The position numbers and the translations under genes are program-made. Source: Planctomycetaceae bacterium (GTDB lineage Bacteria > Planctomycetota > Planctomycetia > Isosphaerales > Isosphaeraceae). From it: 41,151 nt of DNA. The stretch spans positions 1 through 41,151 of the forward strand of contig JAFAHT010000059.1 in NCBI GenBank assembly GCA_019237095.1, given 5' to 3'. Each line of letters starts with the position of its first letter. Positions within the stretch are counted from its first letter, which is position 1. Of this stretch, positions 7,202 through 18,712 are shown piece after piece. The notes under the pieces were generated by a model. It saw only the letters and a program-made list of their open reading frames with translations, searched no databases and was not told the origin of the DNA.

Positions 7202-7870
7202 TCACGGCTGGAGCTCGAGAGTCGCCCAGAGGCTGGGATTTTCGCCGAGCGGAAAATCGCGGCCGACGCCCAGGAACTGGTCCTCGCGCTCGTGGTCCGA
7301 AACCTGATAGGCAAAGCCCAGCCGGCGGTTCGTCTCCGGATCGAAGCCGTGCAGGGCCCGGGCCGGCAGAAAGAGCTCCAGGAGCCAGCCAGCTCGGGAC
7401 AGCTCGGCGTGCATGCTCAGCACGTCGGGCGAGGCGATCGGGGCGTCGGCAACGGCCCGGGCAATCGCACGCTGGCTGACATCGACATCCAGGCTCTTGC
7501 AATCGCGCCCCAGAGTCAGATGCGCTGTGAAGCGATGGCAGAAGCGCGTGGCCCGGCTCACGTTGCGGGTATCGCGCGTGTCGATCCAGAGGTTGACATC
7601 CGCGAACCCTTCGGGCCGATTCGCACTTCTGGCAGCCTTGCTGGCCGGTGCGTCCGCCAGGATCGCGATTCCTAGCCCCCCAGGATTCCAGGCGAGCCGC
7701 ACTGATGCCCAGGAGACGCGGCCTTCGAGCGACGAAAGATCCGGAACCGCACAGGTTGCGGGCAGATCGAGCAGCCCGCCGCGCGCACCGCGACGGGGGA
7801 TCTCCTCGACCCGCGGACACGGTGCACTGAGCCGGAACCAGAACGCCTGGGGCAACAGGGCCTTGCCCAT
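7202..7870 (-). CDS. CBM9/DOMON-like domain protein, 222 aa
   Basis: The start is ATG 7870, preceded by CGGGAG at good spacing. A GTG at 7912 overlapping the upstream stop (GTGA) is an alternative that would add 14 residues. The protein carries beta-rich sequence with the pattern of carbohydrate-binding family 9/DOMON-like domains: DVNLWIDTRDTRNVSRATRF in the middle and WLLELFLPARALHGFDPETN plus RRLGFAYQVSDHERED near the end. In that superfamily the fold binds sugars or haem, but I see no clear ligand residues. No signal peptide is visible, which is odd for a sugar-binding domain. It lies just after the membrane protein gene, and translation may be coupled. Function unknown. Confidence 0.6.
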   Translation of the reverse strand: MGKALLPQAFWFRLSAPCPRVEEIPRRGARGGLLDLPATCAVPDLSSLEGRVSWASVRLAWNPGGLGIAILADAPASKAARSANRPEGFADVNLWIDTRDTRNVSRATRFCHRFTAHLTLGRDCKSLDVDVSQRAIARAVADAPIASPDVLSMHAELSRAGWLLELFLPARALHGFDPETNRRLGFAYQVSDHEREDQFLGVGRDFPLGENPSLWATLELQP

Positions 7871-15445: not shown

Positions 15446-17077
15446 ATGGCCGCAGCAGCTAACGAGTCGCAAGGGCTCAAGATCGCCGTCGCCGCGTTCG
15501 TGACGCTCACGATCGCCCTGGCCGTGACGTCGTATTTCCTGTACTCGTTTTACTCCCAGAGCGAGGCCCAGCTCGAGTCGGAGAGGCACAAGCTGAAGAA
15601 TGCGCTGGATGAGGCCGTCAACCGGGGGGAAAACTATGATGAGTTCCGCAAGCTGGCCGGCGCCAGGGCCGAGGAGTTCGACTCGGCCAAGGCCGAAGTC
15701 GCTGCGTTCTTCAAGAAGAATAGCGAGCGCATCAATAATCTGGTCACAACGACCAATGCCGCCATCCAGAAGGCCCAGCAAGCCGGCGCCGAGGGCAAGG
15801 ACCTCGAGGAAGCCAGGGCCCGCGTCCAGACCATCATCAACTCCTACCAGAGCGAGCCCAACAAGAACTTCTTATCCACCCTGGACCGGCTCACCGAGCT
15901 GCTCGAAAATATCAGCCTCCTGAGCACCGAGATGAGCTCCAACTATCTCGGCCTGAGGAAGAGCCTGGAATCATCGACCAGCGTGGCCAAGCAGGCGAAC
16001 GACATCCAGGCCAAGGCCGCCTCCGACAGCAAGGCCGACCTGGAAGCCGAGCACAACAAGCACGAACAATTGCGCCAGGAGCTGCTGACCAAGGTCGACC
16101 AGCTCCAGACCGACAATGACAAGAAGACTACCCAGATCGCCAACCTCGAGACCCAGTACCGTCAGCTCAAGGACGACAGCGATCGCAAGCTCGAACTGGC
16201 CAACGCGATCATTCGCGAGCAACGCGATGTGCTCGACAAGAACGAGAACGTGCTCGACAAGCCCGACGGCTATATCACCTTCGTCGATCTCACACGTAAC
16301 GAAGTTCAGGTCAACGTCAACCGCCGCCAGGGCGCTCGACCGCAGATGAAGATGACGGTCTTCGTCGCTGGCTCGCCGGGTGTTCCGACCGAGAAGCCCA
16401 AGGGGAACATCCAGTTGATCCAGGTCGGCGACCAGTACAGCATCGCCCATATCGACAAGATGGTCAAAGATATCGATCCGATCCGCGTCGGCGACATCGT
16501 CTACTCGCCTGCCTGGTCGCCCGAGGAGCCCATGCGGTTCGCCCTGATTGGCAAGATCGATGTCAATCGCGACGGCAAGGACGATCGCCTGGACCTCAAG
16601 CGGATGATCGAGGAGGCCGGCGGCATCGTCGATTATGACCTGCCGCCGCCCAGTCACGGTAAGGAATCGGGCAAGCTGAGCGCCCGCATCTCCTGGTACG
16701 TGACCGACGAGCGCATGCCCCTCCGCGAGGTCTTCGAGGCCAGGACCGACGCGGGGATGGCCGCGCAGGCCCAGTTCGATAAGCGTTTTGGCCAGGCGAT
16801 CAAGGAGGCGCGGAGCGAGGGCATCCGGCCCATGCCCTTGGGCCGTCTTCTGGCGTACTTTGGCTACGAGATGGGCACTCCCGTCGTGGGACGCACCGAG
16901 GCCGTCAATGCCGCGGCGATGCTACGCTTGGTCCAGCCCCGAAAGAAAGCGGCCGAGCCCAAGATCGAGACCGACAGCAGCAAGGCCGGTGCCGAGCCGG
17001 CAAATGCCAAGCGTGAAGTCGAGGCTGCCAAGCCTGAACCTGAAGCTGCCAAACCCGAGGAAGAGCCCAAGTCCTAG
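15446..17077 (+). CDS. Membrane-anchored coiled-coil protein of unknown function, 543 aa
   Basis: ATG 15446 follows GGAGGGAG by about 10 bases. Residues about 10-35 form one transmembrane segment (IAVAAFVTLTIALAVTSYFL). Residues about 36-270 are long heptad-type coiled coils rich in Glu, Lys, Gln and Ala. The compact region about 270-365 (YITFVDLTRNEVQVNVNRRQ, KGNIQLIQVGDQYSIAHIDK, RVGDIVYSPAW) looks beta-rich. Then ALIGKIDVNRDGKDDRLDLK and RMIEEAGGIVDYDLPP, a well-formed small domain reminiscent of BRCT. The tail (about 505-543) is a repeated AAKPEPE-type low-complexity sequence. Predicted topology: short inner N-terminus, coiled coil and domains on the other face. I recall similar planctomycete-only proteins, but no function. 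A terminator follows at 17242. Confidence 0.7.
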   Translation: MAAAANESQGLKIAVAAFVTLTIALAVTSYFLYSFYSQSEAQLESERHKLKNALDEAVNRGENYDEFRKLAGARAEEFDSAKAEVAAFFKKNSERINNLVTTTNAAIQKAQQAGAEGKDLEEARARVQTIINSYQSEPNKNFLSTLDRLTELLENISLLSTEMSSNYLGLRKSLESSTSVAKQANDIQAKAASDSKADLEAEHNKHEQLRQELLTKVDQLQTDNDKKTTQIANLETQYRQLKDDSDRKLELANAIIREQRDVLDKNENVLDKPDGYITFVDLTRNEVQVNVNRRQGARPQMKMTVFVAGSPGVPTEKPKGNIQLIQVGDQYSIAHIDKMVKDIDPIRVGDIVYSPAWSPEEPMRFALIGKIDVNRDGKDDRLDLKRMIEEAGGIVDYDLPPPSHGKESGKLSARISWYVTDERMPLREVFEARTDAGMAAQAQFDKRFGQAIKEARSEGIRPMPLGRLLAYFGYEMGTPVVGRTEAVNAAAMLRLVQPRKKAAEPKIETDSSKAGAEPANAKREVEAAKPEPEAAKPEEEPKS

Positions 17078-17182
17078 TGTCCCGTCAATCTTCGATTGAC
17101 AGGTTCTTGAAACTGGAAGTCCTGGGTATTCAAGAAATTCCGGCGAGCGCTGCCCGTCAATTGAAGATGGACGGAACACTAG
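17074..17182. repeat. Long imperfect inverted-repeat element (MITE-like), overlapping a stop codon
   Basis: Two 30-bp arms, 17074-17103 and 17153-17182, are reverse complements at about 26 of 30 positions. They both end in CTAG (CTAGTGT at the left, ACACTAG at the right). Inside them TTCTTGAA (17104-17111) pairs with TTCAAGAA (17129-17136). The left arm begins on the TAG stop of the coiled-coil gene. The AAGTCC hexamer occurs on both flanks. It may be a non-autonomous mobile element or a very long 3'-end hairpin. No transposase is nearby. Confidence 0.6.
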
Positions 17183-17241
17183 AACAAGTCCAGGCAAACG
17201 GAATGGGACCTGAGCATGGTCCTCTCGCGCCCTACCCAGGC

Positions 17242-17273
17242 CCCCCGGAATCGTGATGATTCCGGGGGATTTT
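17242..17273 (+). terminator. Intrinsic terminator of the coiled-coil gene
   Basis: CCCCCGGAATC (17242-17252), loop GTGAT, GATTCCGGGGG (17258-17268), then ATTTT. This is a perfect 11-bp stem followed by a short U-tract on the plus strand, between convergent genes. The stem alone could also slow the polymerase coming from gltA. Confidence 0.85.
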
Positions 17274-17339: not shown

Positions 17340-18485
17340 TCATCGGCCCGCTGCGCGAACATGGCGCCGGGGTGGCCCGATATAGCGGCCTCGAGGCCGC
17401 ATGAGTCGATTGTGGTCGAGCTGCTCGATGCAATGAGCCGCCCAGCCAGCCACCCGGGCCATGGCGAAGATGGGAGTGTAGATCCGGACCGGCAACCCCA
17501 GGTAGTGATAGAGCCGTGCAGTCGGCCAGTCCACGTTGGGAGGCAGCTTTTTGCGGGCCACCACGGCCTGCTCGATCGTTGCGGCAATGTCTTCCCAGCG
17601 CTCCTCCTGAACCTCGCGCGACAGCTCCTGGCAGTAAGGCTTGAGGATCGTGGCCCGGGGATCGGCCTGCTTGTACACGCGGTGGCCAAACCCCATGATT
17701 CGCTGCTGGCGGGCCAGCGCAAGATCGATCCAGCGCCCGGCGCTTTCGGGAGAGCCCACGCTCTCCAGTGCGCTCCAGGCCTCCTCACTGGCTCCTCCAT
17801 GCAGTGGGCCCTTGAGCGCTCCGATCGCAGCCACGATTCCCGAAGCGACGTCTGACAGGGTAGAGACCGTCACCCGGGCCGAGAATGTGGACGCATTGAG
17901 CTCGTGCTCGGCATAGAGAACCAGCGAGGCGTCGAATGCCTGATGCATCCGTGCCGACGGAACCTTGCCTGTGACCATGAACAAGAAATTGGCGGCATGG
18001 TCGAGTTCGGCGTCGGCGGCGACCGGCGGCAGCCCCGCGGAGAGTCGCTCTCGCAGCGCGATGGCCGTGGCCATCTGGGCAATCATCCTTTCGGCCTTGC
18101 GGACATTCGCTGCATGGTCGGAGGCGGGCTGGCCGAGCTCGGGGTCGAAATGGGACAGCACGCTCACCGCCGTCCGCAAGACATCCATGGGGCTCACGTG
18201 CGGCGGTATCGTTTTCAGGAGGTCGACCAGCGGCTCGGGAATCTCTCGCCAGCCGCGCAGTCGAGCGTCGAACTCGCGAAGCTGATTGGCATCGGGTAGG
18301 TCGCCGTGCAAGAGCAGGAACGCCGTCTCCTCATAGCTGACATGGCCCGCGAGGTCCTCGATCCGATAACCCCGGTATTCGAGGATCCCCGAACCTTCCC
18401 GCTCCTCGATATTCGAGATGGCCGTCTGAACGGCAATGACCCCTTCGAGCCCCGGATGATACTGTTCCACTGACGCTTCGCTCAT
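17340..18485 (-). CDS. gltA: Citrate synthase
   Basis: ATG 18485 (MSEASVEQYHPGLEGVIAVQ) is preferred over the track start at 18707, which adds 74 residues without family similarity. The result is 381 aa, the size of the Gram-positive/archaeal dimer type. Catalytic residues are all present: His 229 in KGPLHGGA, His 268 in GFGHRVYK and Asp 319 in NVDWPT, plus His 194 in AEHELNAST. It makes citrate from oxaloacetate and acetyl-CoA. Members of this clade also include 2-methylcitrate synthases, which cannot be excluded, but no prp genes are close. The C-terminal RPRGRYIGP motif is normal for the family. It lies downstream of a GbsR/MarR-type regulator on the same strand. Confidence 0.93.
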   Translation of the reverse strand: MSEASVEQYHPGLEGVIAVQTAISNIEEREGSGILEYRGYRIEDLAGHVSYEETAFLLLHGDLPDANQLREFDARLRGWREIPEPLVDLLKTIPPHVSPMDVLRTAVSVLSHFDPELGQPASDHAANVRKAERMIAQMATAIALRERLSAGLPPVAADAELDHAANFLFMVTGKVPSARMHQAFDASLVLYAEHELNASTFSARVTVSTLSDVASGIVAAIGALKGPLHGGASEEAWSALESVGSPESAGRWIDLALARQQRIMGFGHRVYKQADPRATILKPYCQELSREVQEERWEDIAATIEQAVVARKKLPPNVDWPTARLYHYLGLPVRIYTPIFAMARVAGWAAHCIEQLDHNRLMRPRGRYIGPPRRHVRAAGR

Positions 18486-18505
18486 AAAACTCGTCGCGGC
18501 GGAAA

Positions 18506-18526
18506 CCCGTGCCTTTAGGCATCGGG
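18506..18526. other. Leader hairpin upstream of gltA
   Basis: CCCG-TGCC-TTTA-GGCA-t-CGGG forms an 8-bp stem with one bulged base. It lies 21-41 bases before the gltA start, so it would be in its 5' leader. Confidence 0.35.
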
Positions 18527-18661
18527 AGGAGCCGCGCCTCCACTGGTCAAAGAAAGAACTCAAAACGGCCGGAACGTCTCCCGACATGCCGGACCCAAAA
18601 GACCTCGTAAGAGATCGGTCTCCCATTGCTGGGGTAAAGTTGGCCTCGACAAAGTTATCAC

Positions 18662-18705
18662 GGCTTGTCGTGTCTGACACACTGACCGAATTTCTTCGAC
18701 AAGCC
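18662..18705. promoter_or_regulatory. Palindromic element between the GbsR-type gene and gltA
   Basis: GGCTTGTCG (18662-18670) and CGACAAGCC (18697-18705) are perfect 9-bp inverted repeats, with GTGT-CTG-ACAC nested between them. It starts 8 bases past the regulator stop codon and about 180 bases upstream of gltA. It could be a terminator without U-tract, or an operator. Confidence 0.4.
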
Positions 18706-18712
18706 ACGCCCT

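Follow-up and report, generated by a model that had tools for sequence, protein, structure and literature searches.

Elements of the IS630/Tc1-mariner type usually duplicate the dinucleotide TA at their target. For IS630, a preference for TA within CTAG is given in the title of Tenzen and Ohtsubo (1991), as cited in PMC2170065. The Repeat Unit of Pneumococcus (RUP) of Streptococcus pneumoniae is a 107-bp MITE attributed to IS630-Spn1 (PMC2229807, PMC3049150). MITEPsy1 of Pseudomonas syringae is a 100-bp element with inverted ends and a duplicated CTAG or YTAA target but is tentatively assigned to the IS5 type and thought to derive from ISPsy2, and its listed ends (GGAAGGTCTGAAAAAGCC) are unlike those of the element described here (PMC3189936).

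The 109-bp inverted-repeat unit analyzed here, located at positions 17074-17182 of a 41,151-bp stretch of planctomycete DNA (hereafter the window), is very probably a non-autonomous MITE of the IS630/Tc1-mariner type. RUP is the closest known kind of element: compared by description, it resembles the planctomycete MITE in its length (107 bp), non-coding character, inverted ends in common with a co-resident IS630-family element and TA-containing target. The differences are the other host and the other partner IS, the copy number (about 110 in pneumococcus as against at least six here), and the strict CTAG boundary and longer ends of the planctomycete MITE. The full-length IS630-family elements, including ISPna1 and ISMae29, show CTAG adjoining most of the inspected ends, and their planctomycete members have the same 23-bp ends as the MITE; however, these elements, about 1.2 kb in length, encode a transposase, whereas the MITE has none and its interior is unrelated.

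Structure and genomic context of the repeat unit

The unit is situated in the gap between two convergent genes, of which the upstream one (15446-17077) encodes a 543-aa protein without a Pfam or NCBIfam match. The features of this region are the following.

15446..17077, plus strand: gene for a coiled-coil-like protein of 543 aa, conserved in the family; its TAG stop is inside the target site
17074..17077, no strand: left copy of the putative target, CTAG, whose TAG terminates the 15446-17077 reading frame
17078..17178, plus strand (orientation arbitrary): MITE body, 101 bp, delineated from the copies in the host genome
17078..17100, plus strand: left terminal inverted repeat TGTCCCGTCAATCTTCGATTGAC, matching ends of IS630-family elements
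17101..17155, plus strand: interior, which contains the inner TTCTTGAA/TTCAAGAA repeat, delineated from the alignment of the copies
17156..17178, minus strand: right terminal inverted repeat, TGTTCCGTCCATCTTCAATTGAC when read on the minus strand, recognized from the match between the arms and from ends of IS630-family elements
17179..17182, no strand: right copy of the putative target, CTAG
17242..17268, plus strand: intrinsic-terminator-like hairpin, separate from the MITE
17340..18707, minus strand: convergent gene of the citrate synthase/2-methylcitrate synthase family

Over 27 bp, the arms of the unit have 24 matching positions and, when extended to 30 bp, 26, in agreement with the roughly 26 matches given in the preliminary description, which also correctly placed CTAG at both outer ends and recognized the inner 8-bp repeat (TTCTTGAA/TTCAAGAA). 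The same description listed AAGTCC as shared by both flanks; this hexamer is indeed present on either side but was rejected as a part of the element and is most likely a coincidence because the flanks of the other five copies have nothing in common beyond CTAG. No second pair of 27-bp arms that agree in 23 or more positions and span no more than 200 bp was detected elsewhere in the 41-kb window, and 20 simulated windows (first-order Markov) yielded no comparable inverted repeat. The strand folds far better than shuffled versions, with z = -4.0 as DNA and z = -5.1 as RNA for 17060-17200; the minus strand of the unit, folded as RNA, reaches z = -7.9.

Such a strong RNA hairpin directly after a stop codon might be taken for a 3' element of the upstream mRNA, that is, a terminator or a stabilizing hairpin. 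The hairpin lacks a T-run, however, and a separate terminator-like hairpin is found downstream, at 17242-17268, where the preliminary description had placed it. The distribution of the unit (next section) also argues against this explanation, which appears extremely improbable; a secondary effect of the MITE hairpin on the mRNA is possible.

Copies in the host genome and in relatives

Six full copies of the unit, 96-99% identical to each other, are present in the host draft genome (5.62 Mb in 603 contigs), a minimum given the draft state of the assembly. All six are bordered by CTAG on both sides, and their flanks are mutually unrelated. Thus, the unit is a short (109 bp), non-coding sequence with terminal inverted repeats (24/27) that occurs in several near-identical copies at unrelated sites; the status of the flanking CTAG as a duplicated target follows from co-varying sites in related IS, discussed below. 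The search for further copies and the comparison of the 3' end of the gene in relatives, both proposed in the preliminary description as checks on its MITE interpretation, leave this interpretation intact: five additional copies were found, and the structure is missing at the locus in the relatives.

None of the 198 other genomes searched contains a full-length copy; matches there are confined to the ends of the element and come from three genomes in the host's family. The MITE is absent from two genomes of the same genus, a plasmid search with the MITE as query gave no matches, and a scan of the region against Rfam produced no meaningful match. The five copies at unrelated sites, the lack of the unit at this locus in the relatives and the lack of an Rfam match all speak against an mRNA element that belongs to the upstream gene.

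In the alignment of the six copies, the first 54 bp of the MITE interior (17101-17154) are invariant, and the 55th base is C or T. All variable columns are in or adjacent to the terminal repeats, column 82 being the position immediately internal to the right repeat. This confinement of the variation to the ends could be due to chance or to exchange with the ends of other elements.

IS630-family elements with the same ends

A 27-base end pattern, searched with up to 3 mismatches, matches 17 times in the host genome and 18 times in another genome of the same family (G039), compared with no matches for the reversed pattern used as the control; matches were also obtained in G000, G006, G016 and G010. 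In G039, the matches form nine end pairs. Among the six of these pairs for which the DNA was inspected, four enclose 1,232 bp, measured from one target copy to the other, with CTAC instead of CTAG as the target in one case; a fifth encloses 1,230 bp, and the ends of the remaining pair are 4,066 bp apart. In the one copy examined over its whole length, an HTH ORF is accompanied by a DDE_3 ORF in a different frame; the latter scores above the NCBIfam cut-off for IS630 (NF033545). The host itself carries a 1,235-bp relative with matching ends, which deviate from the MITE ends at several positions, and with CTAG on each side (contig C424), as well as a second, interrupted relative (contig C98). 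A 1,224-bp element with nearly identical ends is present in a Phycisphaeraceae MAG (L112) and is likewise situated between CTAGs.

The MITE and these IS630-family elements have the ends in common but not the interior. Since none of the IS found has an interior resembling that of the MITE, the latter did not arise by simple internal deletion from a known element; the shared ends make mobilization in trans by such a transposase most likely. Under this scheme, a full-length IS630-family element whose ends are similar would supply the transposase that recognizes the 23-bp ends of the MITE, excises it and pastes it into CTAG, with duplication of the target. From the sequences of the ends, we infer that the MITE was moved by an IS630-family transposase of this kind. 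The MITE interpretation proposed earlier is supported by the six near-identical copies with their unrelated flanks and by the ends shared with full-length IS630-family elements.

The left end of the unit additionally contains a palindrome of its own, GTCAATC-TTC-GATTGAC, next to a TAG-containing tetranucleotide, a configuration reminiscent of a REP/BIME-type palindrome pair moved by a RAYT (Y1) transposase, and REPs are known in planctomycetes (PMC3733652). Nevertheless, single units are few, and the element has a fixed length of 109 bp with inverted ends and shares these ends with elements encoding DDE-type IS630 transposases, the only type of transposase found with them. Given this constant length and the association of the ends with DDE transposases, the REP/BIME origin was rejected and can be considered the least probable of the alternatives to an IS630-type MITE.

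Several other elements are bounded by ends of this type. Two of these are longer (L100 1049-4764 and L097 1030-5103; 3.7 and 4.1 kb, respectively) and possibly carry passenger DNA or nested insertions. Two short elements with the same ends, one of 257 bp in a Singulisphaera MAG (L101 919-1175) and one of 111 bp in a Pirellulales MAG (L108 6365-6475), likely represent further MITE families. On host contig C253, a 929-bp stretch between two such ends (L034 1533-2461) contains no clear transposase ORF and is perhaps a decayed element. At one locus in G039 (L061), two different sets of IS630-like ends lie side by side and have one CTAG in common.

The target site

CTAG adjoins the ends of most of the inspected elements, ISPna1 and ISMae29 included. 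In four IS630-family copies, an unusual target is changed in the same way on both sides: CTAC in L098 and L182, CTTG in L100 and CTTAG in L194. Because CTAG also flanks IS630 elements and several deviating sites match on both sides, it should be regarded as the target and not as a part of the element, and the co-variation at the four unusual sites favors duplication of the entire CTAG. The targets of three other copies differ between the two sides: in two copies from G360 (L198 and L199), the left side reads CTAT and the right side CTAG, and L185 has CTAG on one side and GTAG on the other. These do not fit the 4-bp model, and the two G360 copies favor a 2-bp duplication, so that TA may be the duplicated sequence after all. 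Judging from these sites, the IS630 subgroup that would move the MITE may duplicate the 4-bp CTAG instead of TA, a tentative proposal with somewhat less than an even chance of being correct.

CTAG is strongly under-represented in the window, with 16 sites compared to about 140 expected from the base composition. Apart from the site discussed here, at least one of these, at 7672, closes another long predicted ORF (659 aa).

The stop codon of the upstream gene

The TAG stop of the 15446-17077 gene coincides with the very start of the 109-bp unit, and the encoded protein has one extra C-terminal serine compared with its relatives. Both observations could be interpreted as a stop codon created by the MITE insertion, with truncation or alteration of the protein end, and the preliminary description had suggested that the insertion supplied the stop. 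This suggestion is not supported, however: when the flanks are rejoined through a single CTAG, they read ...CCC AAG TCC TAG AAC..., with the stop in frame, and TCC TAG is obtained in the same frame regardless of whether TA or CTAG is duplicated, so the gene already ended at this site. The assignment of CTAG to the target, from its presence next to IS630 elements and the deviating sites that are alike on both sides, also speaks against a stop brought in by the element. The versions of the gene in the two same-genus genomes end one codon earlier (...EPK-stop), not later, so that the protein is not truncated; these genomes have neither the MITE nor a nearby CTAG, and, with an upstream protein only about 65% identical, the nearest relatives compared are not conspecific. 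Altogether, creation of the stop codon by the insertion is highly improbable.

Most likely, the insertion preserved the stop codon. At this locus, the final sense codon of the upstream gene, TCC, and the TAG that follows it together contain a CTAG, which would have served as the target; duplication of this CTAG would regenerate the stop and leave the protein unaltered. The uninterrupted site was thus probably CTAG in the context ...TCCTAGAAC..., and under the CTAG-target model the site free of the MITE is expected to read ...AAGTCCTAGAACAAG....

Implications

The MITE family described here is new, although the kind of element is already well known. The possible 4-bp duplication is a point of interest to transposon specialists: if it is real, a rare tetranucleotide that is able to coincide with TAG stops would serve as a low-damage landing site. 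The locus itself appears to illustrate that insertion of a CTAG-targeting transposon at a TAG stop need not change the protein, and the Isosphaeraceae gain a MITE family along with a plausible candidate for its partner IS.
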